Positions 1 through 6,664 of a stretch of 64,000 nt of DNA are shown one piece after another; position 1 is the first letter of the stretch; the number at the start of each line of letters is the position of its first letter. This DNA comes from Actinopolymorpha singaporensis (lineage in GTDB: Bacteria; Actinomycetota; Actinomycetes; Propionibacteriales; Actinopolymorphaceae). The DNA lies in contig NZ_LT629732.1 of the NCBI RefSeq assembly GCF_900104745.1, positions 3,397,981 to 3,461,980 of the forward strand. Direction: 5' to 3'. A program made the position numbers and the translations under genes. Below the pieces are notes generated by a model. That model was given only the letters and a program-made list of their open reading frames with translations, did not search any database and was not told the DNA's origin.

Positions 1-981
1 GCCACGGCGTCCACCCGGGACCAGCCGGGTGGCCAGCCCGGTGGCCAGCCCGGTGGCCAGGCGGAGGGGCTGCAGCGCGAGTACGAGGCCGTCGTACGCC
101 ACACCCTGACCTCGGTCGTCCAGCTGACGGTGAGCGGCGGCCTCGGGTCCGGCGTCGTCTACGACAAGGCCGGACACATCGTCACCAACGCGCACGTCGT
201 GGGGCAGTCGAAGTCGGTGCGGGTCCGGCCGGCGACGGGCGGAACGCCGCTCGCCGCCCACGTGGTCGCGACGTACCCGCCGGGCGACCTGGCCGTCGTC
301 AAGCTCGACCGGCGCAGGACGCTGAACCCCGCCGAGTTCGCCGACTCCGGCAAGCTTCAGGTGGGCCAGATCGTGCTGGCGATGGGCAATCCGCTCGGGC
401 TGTCCGGGAGCGTCACCAACGGCATCGTGTCCGCGGTCGGCCGCAGCATTCCCGAGCCCGCGCACGAGGGCCTGCCGGGTACGACGATCGGGAACATGAT
501 CCAGACGTCGGCGCCGATCAACCCGGGCAACAGCGGCGGCGCGCTCGTCGACCTGTCCGGGGCGGTGATCGGAATCCCCACCCTCGCCGCGACCGACCCG
601 CAGGCGTCGAACAGCGCGGCTCCCGGCATCGGCTTCGCGATCCCGAGCAACACCGTCACCCGCATCGCCGACCAGATCATCGAACACGGCCGCGTCGTCG
701 ACTCCGGCCGGGCGGCCCTCGGGGTCACCGGGTCCACCGTGACCGACGCCGGGGGAACCCCTGAGGGTGTGGGCGTGGAGTCGGTGAAGGCCGGCAGTGC
801 CGCGGCGCGGGCCGGCATCCGGCCGGGCGACGTCATCACCGCGGTGGGCGGCGCGAAGACGCCGACGAGCGCCGCGCTCGGTGAGGTGCTCGTGAAGCGC
901 CGTCCCGGGCAGGTGGTCACGATGACGATCGTCCGGGACGGCAGCGCGCACCGGGTGGAGGTCAAGCTCGGCCAGGGCTGA
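1..981 (+). CDS. HtrA/DegP-like trypsin-type serine protease with PDZ domain (5' end outside window)
   Basis: The reading frame is open from the first base, so the start lies upstream; the internal GTG at 130 is not the true start because homology to the next gene begins before it (both share QR-YEAVVRHTL-SVVQL). The chymotrypsin-fold triad is visible: His in TNAHVV, Asp in PPGDLAVVKL, Ser in NPGNSGGAL. A C-terminal PDZ domain follows (GVGVESVKAGSAAARAGIRPGDVITAVGG). By family knowledge it is an extracytoplasmic quality-control protease. Bases 25-60 are a 12-bp direct repeat coding GGQP units in the linker before the protease domain. It is followed 85 bp downstream by a close paralogue in the same direction, so this is a tandem duplication. 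Confidence 0.9.
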   Translation, partial: ATASTRDQPGGQPGGQPGGQAEGLQREYEAVVRHTLTSVVQLTVSGGLGSGVVYDKAGHIVTNAHVVGQSKSVRVRPATGGTPLAAHVVATYPPGDLAVVKLDRRRTLNPAEFADSGKLQVGQIVLAMGNPLGLSGSVTNGIVSAVGRSIPEPAHEGLPGTTIGNMIQTSAPINPGNSGGALVDLSGAVIGIPTLAATDPQASNSAAPGIGFAIPSNTVTRIADQIIEHGRVVDSGRAALGVTGSTVTDAGGTPEGVGVESVKAGSAAARAGIRPGDVITAVGGAKTPTSAALGEVLVKRRPGQVVTMTIVRDGSAHRVEVKLGQG

Positions 982-1066: not shown

Positions 1067-2152
1067 ATGGGAACGACCCGACGGCTTCGGCTCACGGTGT
1101 CCGTGTTCGTCGTGGTCGCCGCGTTCGCCGGAGCCGCGGCCGGATGTACCGACAGCCCGCCCGGAAGCTCCCGGGGCGACCCCGGAGGGTCGAAGGCCGG
1201 AGCCACTGCGGCACCCGGTGGCGAGGCGCAGGCGCTCCAGCGTGACTACGAGGCCGTCGTACGGCACACCCTGATCTCCGTCGTACAGCTCAACGTCACC
1301 GGCGGCGGGCTCGGCTCCGGCATCATCTACGACAAGCAGGGCCACATCGTCACCAACGCGCACGTGCTGGGCCGGTCCACCTCGGTGCAGGTCCTGCTCG
1401 CCACCGGGGGAGCGCCGCTGACCGCGCACCTGGTCGCGGCCTACACACCGAGCGACCTCGCGGTGGTCAAGCTGGACCAGCCGCGGGCGCTGGCACCCGC
1501 GGCGTTCGCCGACTCCACCAAGCTGCGGGTGGGCCAGATCGTGCTGGCCATGGGAAACCCGCTCGGCCTGTCCGGCAGTGTGACCAGCGGCATCATCTCA
1601 GCGGTCGGGCGTACCGTCCCGGAGTCGTCGCGTGACGGCGTGCCGGGCACGACGATCACGAGCATGATCCAGACCTCCGCGCCGATCAACCCGGGCAACA
1701 GCGGCGGCGCCCTGGTCGACCTGACCGGGAAGGTGGTTGGCATCCCCACGCTGGCCGCCACCGACCCACAGGTCGAGGGCGGCGGCGTCGCGGCCGGCAT
1801 CGGGTTCGCCATCCCGAGCAACACCGTGACCCGGATCGCCGGTCAGATCATCAGCCACGGGCGGGTGGTGAACTCCGGCAGGGCGGCGCTCGGCGTGACC
1901 GGCACGACGGTCACCGATCCCCAGGGCACGCCGATCGGCGTCGGCGTCGTGTCCGTGCGCACCGGCAGCGGCGCGGCGAACGCCGGCATCCTGCGCGGCG
2001 ACGTCATCACCGCTGTCAACGGCGTGCGCACTCCGACGAGCGCGGCGCTCGGCGAGGTCGTCGCCCAGCACCGGCCCGGCCAGTTGGTCACCGTCTCGAT
2101 TCGCCGCCAGGGCAAGGACGCGACGGTGAAGGTGAAGCTCGGTCAGCTCTGA
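1067..2152 (+). CDS. HtrA/DegP-like serine protease lipoprotein with PDZ domain
   Basis: 361 residues. The N-terminus has Arg-rich n-region, a hydrophobic stretch (residues 10-25) and a lipobox-like AAGC with Cys27, so it is probably a membrane-anchored lipoprotein. A Pro/Gly/Ser linker leads to the protease domain (about 70-250) with His99 (TNAHV), Asp130 (PSDLAVVKL) and Ser212 (GNSGG), then a PDZ domain (about 265-355). It is colinear with the preceding gene and very similar to it, differing mainly in the linker. The ATG at 1067 is preceded by a GAGGGGG stretch. The 3' end overlaps the convergent SRPBCC gene by 10 bp. Substrates cannot be told from sequence; misfolded envelope proteins are the family expectation. 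Confidence 0.9.
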   Translation: MGTTRRLRLTVSVFVVVAAFAGAAAGCTDSPPGSSRGDPGGSKAGATAAPGGEAQALQRDYEAVVRHTLISVVQLNVTGGGLGSGIIYDKQGHIVTNAHVLGRSTSVQVLLATGGAPLTAHLVAAYTPSDLAVVKLDQPRALAPAAFADSTKLRVGQIVLAMGNPLGLSGSVTSGIISAVGRTVPESSRDGVPGTTITSMIQTSAPINPGNSGGALVDLTGKVVGIPTLAATDPQVEGGGVAAGIGFAIPSNTVTRIAGQIISHGRVVNSGRAALGVTGTTVTDPQGTPIGVGVVSVRTGSGAANAGILRGDVITAVNGVRTPTSAALGEVVAQHRPGQLVTVSIRRQGKDATVKVKLGQL

Positions 2153-3428: not shown

Positions 3429-3445
3429 ATTCGCTGACAGCGCAC
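3429..3445. promoter_or_regulatory. Candidate ClgR box upstream of clpP pair
   Basis: ATTCGCTGACAGCGCAC contains CGC-TGACA-GCG, which fits the ClgR core described for actinobacteria (CGC-Y-N-A-N-R-GCG) at every core position; the outer flanks fit only partly. It lies 104 bp before the clpP start. ClgR is an established activator of clpP genes in Corynebacterium and Streptomyces, so function is inferred from motif and place. Confidence 0.55.
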
Positions 3446-3548
3446 ACCGGCGCACGGCGTCGGCCTTCTCGGTGACAGTGATGACAAGAGATGGCGAGGG
3501 ATCACAAAGACGAGCCACCGACGAGGGCACCACGTCCAGGAGGTAATC

Positions 3549-4166
3549 GTGAATCCGTCCATGACCGACACGGCCCCCACCGGCAGCGGTTTCGACGACC
3601 AGCTGGCGGCCAGGCTGCTGCACCACCGCATCGTCCTGCTCGGCTCGGAGGTCGACGAGGTGAGCGCCAATCGGGTGTGCGCACAGTTGCTGCTGCTGTC
3701 CGCGCAGGACCCCCGTACCGACATCAGCCTCTACATTCACAGCCCCGGCGGCGGGGTGTACGCCGGGATGGCGATCTACGACACGATGCGGCTGATCCCG
3801 AACGACGTGTCGACACTCGCGATGGGCTTCGCCGCCAGCATGGGGCAGTTCCTGTTGTGCGGGGGCACGAAGGGCAAGCGGTTCGCCCTGCCACACGCCC
3901 GGATCATGATGCACCAGGGCTCGGCCGGCATCGGCGGAACGGCCGCGGACATCGCGATCCAGGCCGGCAATCTGGAGCACTCCAAGGCCCAGATGGAACG
4001 CCTGCTCGCTGCCAACACCGGTCAGCCGGTCGAACGGATCCGCGAGGACAGCGACCGCGACCGGTGGTTCTCGGCTGAGGAGGCACGCCAGTACGGCATG
4101 GTCGACGCGGTGGTGGACTCACTGGACCGCATCGGCCACGGCATCTCCCAGCGGGCGGGGGTCTGA
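3549..4166 (+). CDS. clpP: ATP-dependent Clp protease proteolytic subunit (intact catalytic triad)
   Basis: 205 residues, normal ClpP length. The GTG start at 3549 follows AGGAGG with good spacing. The fold is unmistakable: ISLYIHSPGGGVYAGMAIYD, catalytic Ser97 in GFAASMGQ, His122 in RIMMHQG, Asp167 in REDSDRDRWFSAEEA. It forms the chamber that degrades proteins fed by a Clp ATPase in the cytoplasm. It is followed after 3 bp by a second clpP, so the two are co-transcribed and probably make a mixed tetradecamer. The pair resembles the accessory clpP3-clpP4 operons of Streptomyces; no clpX or tig gene is next to it. A ClgR-type box lies upstream. Confidence 0.95.
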   Translation: MNPSMTDTAPTGSGFDDQLAARLLHHRIVLLGSEVDEVSANRVCAQLLLLSAQDPRTDISLYIHSPGGGVYAGMAIYDTMRLIPNDVSTLAMGFAASMGQFLLCGGTKGKRFALPHARIMMHQGSAGIGGTAADIAIQAGNLEHSKAQMERLLAANTGQPVERIREDSDRDRWFSAEEARQYGMVDAVVDSLDRIGHGISQRAGV

Positions 4167-4169
4167 GCC

Positions 4170-4778
4170 ATGGGCCACTACACGATTCCCAACGTGATCG
4201 AGCGCACGCACACCGGCGAACGCGCCACCGACCTGTTCAGCCGGCTGCTGTCGGAGCGGATCATCTTCCTCGGCACCGAGATCGACGACGACGTGGCGAA
4301 CGTCGTGATGGCGCAGCTGATCCACCTGGAGGCGGCCAGCCCCTCGCAGGACATCTCGTTGTACATCAACTCACCGGGCGGCTCGTTCAGTGCGCTGATG
4401 GGGATCTACGACACGATGCAGTTCGTCCTGCCCGACGTGTCGACGATGTGCCTGGGCCAGGCGAGTTCGGCGGCGACGGTGTTGCTGGCCGGAGGTGCGC
4501 CCGGCAAACGGCTCGCCCTGCGCCACTCCCGGATCGCCCTGGACCAGCCGGCGGCGAGAGCACAGGGTGCGCTGTCGGACCTGCAGGTACAGGCCACGGA
4601 AGTGGCCCGGATACGCACCCTCATGCTGGAGGTGCTCAACCGGCACACCGGCCGCAGCGTGGAGACCCTCCGCGCCGACACCGACCGCGAACGCGTCTTC
4701 GACGCCGAGGAGGCCAAGGCGTACGGACTGATCGACGAGATCCTCGTCTACCGCGGCGACGGCCCCGACTTCCAGTGA
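4170..4778 (+). CDS. clpP: ClpP-family subunit with the catalytic His replaced by Asp
   Basis: 202 residues, with 3 bp between its ATG and the stop of the first clpP. The fold is complete: [20 protein letters not shown], Ser100 in [11 protein letters not shown], Asp170 in [15 protein letters not shown]. At the position of the catalytic histidine (25 residues after Ser100, as in ClpP generally) the motif reads RIALDQPAA, so residue 125 is Asp (codon GAC instead of CAC). By known enzymology this should abolish or strongly reduce its own peptidase activity, making it a structural or regulatory subunit comparable in concept to ClpR of cyanobacteria and plastids. Sequencing error of one base is the main alternative. 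Confidence 0.9.
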
Positions 4779-4821: not shown

Positions 4822-6498
4822 TCACCCGGCGACGAAGACGCCCCAGGCGAGGTTGCCGGCCCGGCCACCGTCGACCCAGTGCCGCAGGCCGGTGCGCATC
4901 CGGTCGAGGTAGTCGGCGCTGACCCGACCGGCAAGGCTCGCGTCGCGGCGTTCGGTCTCGTCCAGGACCCGCTGGTAGTGGGTGGTGAGGTGCTCGGTCA
5001 GGTCGTCGAACTCCACCGTCAATCCGAGGTTGGCGAGAGTACGTCGGTAGAACTCCGGGGAGGCCATCGTGTCCAGGTGCAGGCGCCGGAGAATGGGCGC
5101 CAGCGCCTCACGTGGGCAGCCGTCGGCGGCCATCGGGTCGGTGAAGACGATTCTGCCGCCGGGCCGGAGAACCCGCACCGCCTCCTGCAGAACCTGCACT
5201 CGGTCACCGCTGTGCAACAGCGCGTCCTGGGACCAGACGACGTCGAACCTGTTGTCCTCGAACGGCAGGTCCTCGAAGGAGCCGTCGACTACCTCCACCA
5301 ACTCCGACAGGCCGGCGGCGTCGGTGAGTACGCGGTTGCGGGCGTTCTCCACCTCGCTGAGGTTCAAGCACGTGGTCCGGCAGCCGGACGTGCCGGACAG
5401 GTGCCGCGCCGCGCCGCCGAAACCTGACCCGAGATCGAGGACCCGGGTGTCCGGTCCGAGGTCGAGCGCGCCGGCCATCCGGGTCACGGTGCGCCTGCTC
5501 GCGGTGGCGATGTCCTCGTCGGGTTCGGTGTAGATGCCGACGTGGATGTCCTCGCCACCCCACACCAGCGAGTAGAACGTGTCCGCGTCCTGGGAGTTGT
5601 AGTAGTCACGTGCGGTGTGCACGGTGGAGGAGTAACCGTCGACTGCCTGGTCCGGCGTACGATGCGCCTTCTCCGCGACGTGGATGAAGAAGTCCGGCTC
5701 GCCCTCGGGATGGGTGTCCTGGAAGTCGCTGTAGGTCTCCACGTGCGCGAAACCCACCTCCCGCATCAGCGTCCGCACGTAGTCGCGGCGCAGCGGGTAC
5801 ATGTTGAGGTGGTACCGACTCCTGTCGGGGAAGGTGTAGCAGAAGCGCGCCAGGCCCGCGTCGACGTACTCCGGCTCCGCGGTGACCGTGTCGCCGCAGT
5901 AGTAGTAGGTGTGCCGATTGCTGTAGGCGCCGTCGAGCAGCGCGTCGTAGTTGCGCTGGTCGAGGATGAGAACGCCGTCGTGCTTGAGCACCGCGTAGAA
6001 CTCGGCCAGCGCTTTCCTGCGGTCTTTCTCGGAGAAGAGGTGGGTGAAGGAGTTGCCCAGGCAGATGATCGCGTCGTACTCGCCCTGGACGTCGCGGTTG
6101 AGCCATCGCCAGTCAGCGTGGATGACCCGTAGTACGTGACCGCCGCGGGCCCGGGCGTTCTCGAACGCCTTGGTCAGCATGTCGGCGCTACCGTCCGCGC
6201 TGACCGTCTCGAAGCCCTCCTCGAGCAGTCGTACCGAGTGGAAACCGGTGCCGGTGGCCACGTCCAGCACGGTCTTCGCGCCACGGGACTTGAGCTGGTC
6301 GACGAAGAACCGGCCCTCGCTCTCCGCGCGCTTGTCCCAGTCGATGAGCTCGTCCCACTTCTCGACGAAGCTGGTGACGTATTCCTGGGTGTAGTGGTCG
6401 GTGTCCCGGACCTCGGTAGGGCTGTCACCGAACTGTTGTTGGTCGTTCGTACCGTCGTCGGGCAGGTTCGTTCTGGAACTGTCCTGGGTACTCTTCAC
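4822..6498 (-). CDS. Fused glycine/sarcosine N-methyltransferase and sarcosine/dimethylglycine N-methyltransferase
   Basis: About 558 residues holding two SAM-dependent methyltransferases. The N-terminal half has motif I VLDVATGTGFHS (about residues 77-88) and the GSMT-type NRHTYYYCGDTVTAEP and FFIHVAEK segments; the C-terminal half has VLDLGSGFGGAARHL and FTDPMAADG, typical of SDMT. Together they convert glycine via sarcosine and dimethylglycine to glycine betaine with SAM, giving an osmoprotectant in the cytoplasm. A fused form is known from the halophile Actinopolyspora halophila. The start is uncertain: the frame is open to a GTG at 6654, but a promoter-like pair lies at 6636-6664, so I prefer the GTG at 6498 with GGGAG 11 bp upstream. 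Confidence 0.88.
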   Translation of the reverse strand: MKSTQDSSRTNLPDDGTNDQQQFGDSPTEVRDTDHYTQEYVTSFVEKWDELIDWDKRAESEGRFFVDQLKSRGAKTVLDVATGTGFHSVRLLEEGFETVSADGSADMLTKAFENARARGGHVLRVIHADWRWLNRDVQGEYDAIICLGNSFTHLFSEKDRRKALAEFYAVLKHDGVLILDQRNYDALLDGAYSNRHTYYYCGDTVTAEPEYVDAGLARFCYTFPDRSRYHLNMYPLRRDYVRTLMREVGFAHVETYSDFQDTHPEGEPDFFIHVAEKAHRTPDQAVDGYSSTVHTARDYYNSQDADTFYSLVWGGEDIHVGIYTEPDEDIATASRRTVTRMAGALDLGPDTRVLDLGSGFGGAARHLSGTSGCRTTCLNLSEVENARNRVLTDAAGLSELVEVVDGSFEDLPFEDNRFDVVWSQDALLHSGDRVQVLQEAVRVLRPGGRIVFTDPMAADGCPREALAPILRRLHLDTMASPEFYRRTLANLGLTVEFDDLTEHLTTHYQRVLDETERRDASLAGRVSADYLDRMRTGLRHWVDGGRAGNLAWGVFVAG

Positions 6499-6635
6499 GA
6501 CTTCTGGCACTCCCTGGGGTTTCTCGCGAACTCCTGCGAACCGGACGGGCGCGTCGAAGGCATGGCTTCGAGTGACGGGCGGCGCCGCTGCATCCACGGG
6601 CTGTGCGGACTGTGCGCGCTCCTCGCGCCGCACCC

Positions 6636-6664
6636 AAACTATGGGATGGACCACATGCGTTCAA
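6636..6664 (-). promoter_or_regulatory. Candidate promoter of the betaine-synthesis gene
   Basis: On the minus strand TTGAAC, 17 bp and TAGTTT form a SigA-like pair. It implies a leader of about 130 bases to the GTG at 6498 and argues against the longest reading frame being translated. Confidence 0.45.

Follow-up and report, generated by a model that had tools for sequence, protein, structure and literature searches.

Recurrent loss of the catalytic triad in ClpP4, the partner of an intact ClpP3, in Actinopolymorpha singaporensis and other Actinomycetes

The 64,000-nucleotide stretch of Actinopolymorpha singaporensis DNA analyzed here (the window) carries two adjacent clpP genes, of which the first, clpP3, encodes a complete Ser-His-Asp triad and the second, clpP4, a ClpP-fold subunit in which the triad is broken. 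In the reading that we favor, with a probability of roughly 0.72, ClpP4 is dispensable as a protease and has repeatedly lost its active site because ClpP3 cuts and ClpP4 docks the Clp unfoldase, an arrangement that would work in the manner of ClpP/ClpR and have a separate origin. What was observed directly is that residues are lost, and lost repeatedly, beside an intact partner, that the gene is under purifying selection, and that the aromatic residues of the docking pocket are conserved in the opposite sense.

The clpP3-clpP4 locus and the residues lost

The gene clpP3 (3549..4166, + strand) is preceded by AGGAGGT (3538..3544, +), from its sequence a likely ribosome-binding site, and its product keeps the catalytic residues Ser97 (3837-3839, +), His122 (3912-3914, +) and Asp171 (4059-4061, +), with Leu replacing an aromatic residue at one docking-pocket position. 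After a gap of 3 bp on the same strand, clpP4 (4170..4778, +) encodes a product of 202 aa that retains the nucleophile as Ser100 (4467..4469, +) and carries Asp125 (GAC, 4542..4544, +) at the position of the catalytic His and Glu174 (GAA, 4689..4691, +) at that of the catalytic Asp. These three residues align with Ser110, His135 and Asp186 of M. tuberculosis ClpP2, the last two of which we take to be the rest of that protein's triad. Ser110 is given in PMC3258218. The original prediction had placed Asp at the catalytic His position of the second clpP and an intact ClpP partner 3 bp upstream; the alignment and the codon at 4542-4544 confirm the former, and the open reading frame at 3549-4166(+) ends where the latter had been located. 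It was also right about Ser97 and His122 of the partner, the catalytic Asp of which is Asp171 and not Asp167 as proposed, and it did not include the second lesion, the change of the catalytic Asp to Glu174, with which two of the three triad residues of ClpP4 are altered.

Judged by its sequence, ClpP4 is a ClpP-family protein that, deprived of Ser-His-Asp, would be no ClpP peptidase. It matches the ClpP profile PF00574 (peptidase family S14) with 228.5 bits (cut-off 20.2), as does the clpP3 product, also far over the cut-off, and NF001368 with 258.7 bits (cut-off 249), while the cut-off of the clpP equivalog TIGR00493 (308.6) is reached neither by ClpP4 (241.9) nor by its partner (220.5). One of five AlphaFold2 models was usable (mean pLDDT 78.8, against 40.7-45.4 for the others; pTM 0.75), with residues 127-135, adjoining Asp125, below a pLDDT of 50 and with side-chain geometry and assembly beyond its reach. 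The best Foldseek match of this model was M. tuberculosis ClpP2 (TM 0.86 and 0.90), and VIA-align returned ClpP chains, with Z values of 24.6 to 5e0s and 25.1 for the top rows. The predicted model supports the ClpP fold of ClpP4, and nothing finer. In a tree of ClpP1, ClpP2, ClpP3 and ClpP4 sequences, ClpP3 forms one side of a single branch with support 100; the ClpP4 label needs four changes, with rows of family f21 labelled ClpP4 intermingling with ClpP2, and the window's ClpP4 falls, by leaf order, in the main ClpP4 group.

The genome of the window holds five PF00574 matches, namely the clpP3/clpP4 pair, a ClpP1/ClpP2 pair at about 5.91 Mb and, at 5.41 Mb, a single divergent protein. This fifth ClpP-like protein (1501-2010(-) of locus L005, equivalent to C1:5409457-5409966 of the genome) has relatives in L031-L033 and L035 and matches in all six Actinopolymorpha genomes, and its triad positions, in five genomes, read Gly-Ala-Gly (four) or Gly-Ser-Gly (one). 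At an E value of 1e-30, it was matched in 2 of 118 class genomes, its own included.

Among the relatives listed, the best named match came from A. rutila (96% identity). Position 174 is Glu in all six Actinopolymorpha species compared, the window's genome included, and the partner ClpP3 is Ser-His-Asp in all six, whereas position 125 is Asp in the window's genome only. The original prediction had asked whether Asp is fixed among relatives and had allowed that His in all of them would make it a single-strain mutation; within the genus this is how the alignment falls, with His in five of five congeners, and Asp125 as a genus-wide fixed state was ruled out. In the order of events that this comparison suggests, the catalytic Asp would have been lost first (Asp to Glu, in all six species) and the His later, in the window's species alone (CAC to GAC), so that by sequence the His-to-Asp replacement is one species' private change over an older loss of Asp. 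The pseudo-protease reading survives because all six species are without the catalytic Asp and other lineages have lost Ser, His or Asp. Asp125 itself could be a single-genome event that says nothing about the lineage, whether a mutation newly arisen in this genome or an error of base calling, in keeping with the His of the five congeners and the single base that separates GAC from a His codon. We consider this rather unlikely, given that His-to-Asp recurs in L046, in L239/L240 and in L215 (the last among rows with mixed ClpP2/ClpP4 labels), a change that this position thus tolerates; an event confined to Asp125 is in any case compatible with the main reading of ClpP4, and Glu174 in six of six species is untouched by it.

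Triad states and selection across Actinomycetes

Loci with clpP genes were taken from genus, family, order, class and named genome contigs, and open reading frames were sorted by their best match to the genome's own ClpP1-4. The ClpP4 set comprised the genus and family loci, 30 loci fetched from the order (where 123 of 293 genomes matched the window's protein at E ≤1e-63), 30 from the class (127 of 394 genomes at E ≤1e-66), a further 100 chosen regions from these order and class matches, and the best 80 of at least 571 named-contig relatives, mostly Streptomyces. This sample is no census: divergent ClpP4, intact or broken, are under-represented, and a species with differing copies may have been counted twice. 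Nor are the controls a census; those for ClpP1 and ClpP2 derive largely from 30 of 118 class genomes matching the genome's own ClpP2 at 1e-85 and from ClpP2-like order and class matches. Sequences shorter than 150 aa were left out, and 9 of 531 distinct sequences were dropped from the triad counts (five of the divergent fifth ClpP-like family, with scores <120, and four with an ambiguous residue).

Counted on distinct sequences, Ser-His-Asp is intact in 61/61 ClpP1, 56/56 ClpP2 and 198/198 ClpP3, and in 64/207 ClpP4. The 143 broken ClpP4 display 17 triad states, with Ala, Trp, Glu or Gly at the Ser position, Gly, Ala, Asp, Glu or Gln at the His position and Asn, Ser, His, Thr or Glu at the Asp position, a variety that is direct evidence of several separate events. 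Among 198 distinct clpP3-clpP4 pairs (families f22 and f23 being merged with Streptomycetaceae and Jiangellaceae on judgement, by sequence likeness for Streptomyces), 141 combine a broken ClpP4 with an intact ClpP3, 57 have both intact and none shows the reverse. Of the original prediction, the pairing of an intact ClpP with a broken-triad subunit is supported, and the two are retained as a pair. Both genes lie on one strand in 198/198 pairs, a count restricted to loci with both. Within the Streptomycetaceae the His of ClpP4 is missing in 85/85 distinct pairs (81 Ser-Gly-Asp, three Ser-Gly-Glu, one Ser-Ala-Asp), and it is absent from 73 of the best 80 named loci; ClpP4 of S. violaceoruber NRRL S-981 (L160) is Ser-Gly-Asp. 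Intact and broken ClpP4 coexist in families f4, f20, f2 and f3.

Some of these states bear on whether ClpP4 might still cut, its site being completed by a neighbor or another residue in a hetero-complex. Listeria monocytogenes ClpP1 resembles the present case in having an altered catalytic Asp (Asn172) beside a normal isoform, and its site aligns to an active triad only when complexed with ClpP2 (cited in PMC9765437); the Ser-His-Asn, Ser-His-Glu, Ser-His-Ser and Ser-His-His classes of ClpP4 (14/143) could act so. In Listeria, however, one residue is affected in a triad that reportedly becomes aligned, whereas ClpP4 is hit at all three positions in several lineages, and 129/143 broken ClpP4, without Ser or His, are hard to fit to such a site. 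Residual cutting by ClpP4 is, in our judgement, distinctly unlikely.

In a tree of 283 ClpP (144 of them ClpP4) built with the triad columns removed, parsimony placed 11 changes between intact and broken states in ClpP4, and none in ClpP1, ClpP2 or ClpP3. When a mixture model was applied to 172 rows of ClpP4 and ClpP2, the resulting second tree likewise gave 11 changes, at least 7 of them forced by starred branches, in a count blind to loss versus regain; many of its inner branches are weakly supported (69 of 169 open) and some rows are long, which leaves the exact number soft, and both trees are quick ones with long rows, the stars of which deserve less trust. On the 172-row tree, intact/lost changes number 6, 6 and 7 in the columns of the triad, 19 together (8, 8 and 13 residue changes), against three in all for 28 control columns that do not vary in intact ClpP4 or in at least 27/28 ClpP2, 26 of these 28 columns showing none. 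Compared with these controls, the pattern of triad loss is not due to chance. The columns conserved to at least 90% in intact ClpP4 and to less than 80% in broken ClpP4 are 74, 100, 125, 161, 171 and 174, the whole triad included.

Broken ClpP4 is under purifying selection, like ClpP3. Nei-Gojobori dN/dS values of the window's clpP4 against five congeners were 0.11-0.24; over 15 Actinopolymorpha pairs they ranged from 0.078 to 0.287 for clpP4 and from 0.065 to 0.248 for clpP3, and the streptomycete medians were 0.169 (73 clpP4, without His) and 0.184 (72 clpP3). That clpP4 is a redundant gene on its way to a pseudogene is highly improbable: the losses are indeed many and lineage-specific, as under relaxed selection at the triad residues, but dN/dS is as low in clpP4 as in the active partner, 26 of the 28 other invariant columns show no change whatever, and in the 85 streptomycetaceous pairs without His the ClpP4 frames are open and constrained. 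Decay of ClpP4 as a pseudogene was rejected on dN/dS values clearly <1 in broken lineages.

Docking pocket, division of labor and known systems

In Streptomyces ClpP1P2, ClpP1 cuts, a ClpP2 with Ser changed to Ala supports full activity, and it is ClpP2 that the unfoldases bind, by way of three residues of its pocket (E. coli Y74, Y76 and F96; PMC9765437); M. tuberculosis unfoldases likewise require the ClpP2 face (PMC4416901). The corresponding ClpP4 positions 63, 65 and 85 were placed by distance to the catalytic Ser and include, in the window, Tyr65 (4362..4364, +; E. coli Y76) and Phe85 (4422..4424, +; E. coli F96), both mapped with PMC9765437. Tyr occupies position 65 in 207/207 ClpP4, and 204/207 carry Phe or Tyr at position 85, a position that is Leu or Met in 177/198 ClpP3. 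Aromatic residues at both positions are found in 2/198 ClpP3, 56/56 ClpP2 and 55/61 ClpP1. As 164/198 ClpP3 retain Tyr or Trp at 65, the loss concerns mainly one pocket position; at position 63, ClpP4 varies no less than the other subunits do. ClpP3 thus keeps the triad and has lost part of the pocket, and ClpP4 keeps the two aromatics and often loses the triad. The reported insensitivity of ClpP3P4 to ADEP (PMC12607617), which usually binds the docking pocket (PMC9765437), fits this picture.

We infer that clpP3-clpP4 constitutes a second, ClpP1P2-like operon of Actinomycetes encoding an asymmetric ClpP core. ClpP3 and ClpP4 would assemble as two rings of one barrel, a Clp unfoldase would dock on the ring of ClpP4, the ClpP2-like subunit, and substrate would be fed through the ClpP4 face to the active sites of ClpP3, a broken ClpP4 itself not cutting. 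Docking and cutting being thus parted, the active site of ClpP4 would be free to decay while its other residues stayed constrained, and in many lineages it would have done so. The evidence leans towards complementary degeneration across Actinomycetes, in which ClpP3 lost a pocket aromatic and ClpP4, repeatedly and via all three triad residues, its active site, on a tally of 11 changes by parsimony, at least 7 of them forced and some possibly regains. If this is true, a half-dead ClpP barrel recurs in nature and is the rule in the sampled Streptomycetaceae, and the backup function, essential there without ClpP1P2, would run on seven sites.

Two other roles for ClpP4 were weighed. As a ClpR-type subunit it would share mixed rings with ClpP3, as ClpR, a ClpP-like protein without catalytic residues, shares rings with ClpP3 in Synechococcus at 3:4 (PMC6508832). 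Against this, its nearest solved relatives, in sequence and in fold, are mycobacterial ClpP2, and M. tuberculosis ClpP1P2 is described as a double ring of two kinds of subunit, one face being ClpP1 and the other ClpP2 (PMC4416901); by analogy with that actinobacterial case, an inactive ring on top of an active one is the likelier arrangement, and the odds of mixed rings seem small. Broken ClpP4 might also act as a regulator, poisoning other ClpP rings or retuning them, comparable to the action of ClpP_ADEP on ADEP-activated ClpP1 in S. hawaiiensis, where an accessory ClpP reportedly can break up one complex and enter into a different one (PMC12607617). We regard this role as very unlikely, as clpP4 shares strand and locus with clpP3 in 198/198 pairs (among loci with both) and clpP3P4 is described as the second peptidase, with expression upon impairment of the first (PMC7142297).

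To return to ClpP3 as the cutting and ClpP4 as the docking ring, we know of no biochemistry on the ClpP3P4 core, and none was found in the extracts of open-access literature searched, which counts against that reading. The same holds for the 64/207 intact ClpP4, for the only partial loss of the ClpP3 pocket together with the variable position 63 of ClpP4, and for the ClpP2 triad, intact in 56/56 although equally dispensable in the Streptomyces ClpP1P2 assays; that the sites of the docking ring are dispensable is therefore not enough to predict their loss. In M. tuberculosis, ClpX-dependent degradation is reportedly not much slowed by inactivating either ring (PMC4416901), which means that a split of labor between rings is not universal. 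We also count against the main reading that "clpP4" of S. cattleya, coexpressed with clpX in E. coli, shortened the half-life of an antitoxin, in a study whose numbering pairs clpP4 with clpP5 and whose host has its own ClpP (PMC4989188). The retention of the triad in ClpP2, which takes the corresponding place in the housekeeping core, contrasts with its loss in ClpP4.

It is in cyanobacteria, plastids and apicoplasts that pseudo-subunits of ClpP have become best known. ClpP4 shares with ClpR the lack of a full triad, two of its three residues being gone in the window, and scores 150.6 bits against NF009204, presumably the ClpR-like NCBIfam model, below the cut-off of 263, which places it outside the cyanobacterial and plastid ClpR lineage. 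Its separate origin is judged from its nearest solved relatives, mycobacterial ClpP2. The functional parallel to ClpP/ClpR drawn in the original prediction is supported. Inactive ClpP-like subunits are already known, ClpR of cyanobacteria and plastids being one with a ClpP fold and without the full triad beside an active ClpP (PMC6508832), as is the altered triad of Listeria ClpP1 (cited in PMC9765437). No statement of an actinomycete ClpP4 without the triad was found in the extracts of open-access literature. ClpP1P2 of Streptomyces and M. tuberculosis also consists of two subunits from adjacent genes, with the ClpP2-like subunit as the docking face, a role that is transferred to ClpP4 here by inference, and the catalysis of the docking ring is dispensable in the Streptomyces assays (PMC9765437, PMC4416901); unlike ClpP4, all 117 distinct ClpP1 and ClpP2 keep Ser-His-Asp. 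Streptomyces ClpP3P4, a PopR-controlled backup Clp core, has the gene order of the window and an intact ClpP3 triad as well, and differs in the order of the losses, Asp having gone first in the genus of the window, where His was present until recently.

Through the repeated conversion of ClpP4 in Actinomycetes, the loss of catalysis from a proteolytic ring with an intact sister is replicated many times, which allows the reasons for ClpP/ClpR mixtures to be tested by comparison. In Streptomyces either clpP1P2 or clpP3P4 must function (PMC9765437); should ClpP4 be inactive in that genus, the essential backup activity would have to come from ClpP3, which would then be the main target of serine-reactive Clp inhibitors in the ClpP3P4 core.

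The control region and neighboring genes

A second difference from Streptomyces ClpP3P4 lies upstream, where the window has a ClgR-type box replacing the PopR box and no popR-like gene adjoining clpP4. The box consensus applied comes in part from PMC9775585, which also gives the PopR box motif, TCTGCC-N3-GGCAGA. With up to two mismatches, a PopR box was found upstream of clpP3 in 180/199 stretches, drawn from all families, compared with 6/199 shuffled ones. Upstream of the window's clpP3 no PopR box was found, the best candidate having four mismatches; from its sequence and that of congeners, the element there is a ClgR-type operator-like box, TTCGCTGACAGCG (3430..3442, +). The Actinopolymorpha genomes G003 and G001 have a PopR-type box at a like distance, and a popR-like gene adjoins clpP4 in both and in G006; the window, G004 and G005 have TTCGCTNACAGCG at a like distance upstream of clpP3 and G002 a variant of it, and no popR-like gene lies beside clpP4 in the window's genome, G004, G005 or G002. 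A looser ClgR-type pattern matches the window six times, with 2.9 expected and at least six in 10/100 shuffles, and is not rare; because the pattern alone is not unusual in the window, the weight of the box rests on its place and on the congeners. A ClgR-type box also precedes the genome's own clpP1, and a ClgR-like gene is present at about 5.63 Mb in the order pgsA-cinA-clgR (gene names assigned by eye), which we take to be the setting of ClgR. Together, these observations suggest that control of the operon may have shifted from PopR to ClgR within the window's subclade of Actinopolymorpha.

This apparent swap of operator and regulator concerns 3430-3442 of the window and loci L007-L011, L301, L302 and L306. 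In family f21, PopR-type boxes stand upstream of 6/17 clpP1-like genes, the partner genes of which have mixed ClpP2/ClpP4 tree labels.

Upstream of the clpP pair are two similar tandem open reading frames, 130-981(+) and 1067-2152(+), the latter matching Do/HtrA-type serine protease models under their cut-offs. At 4822-6654(-), an open reading frame of 610 aa combines a part that matches glycine/sarcosine N-methyltransferase (475 bits, cut-off 350) with one that matches sarcosine/dimethylglycine methyltransferase (367.5 bits, under the cut-off of 550), and its product is likely a fused enzyme of glycine betaine synthesis.
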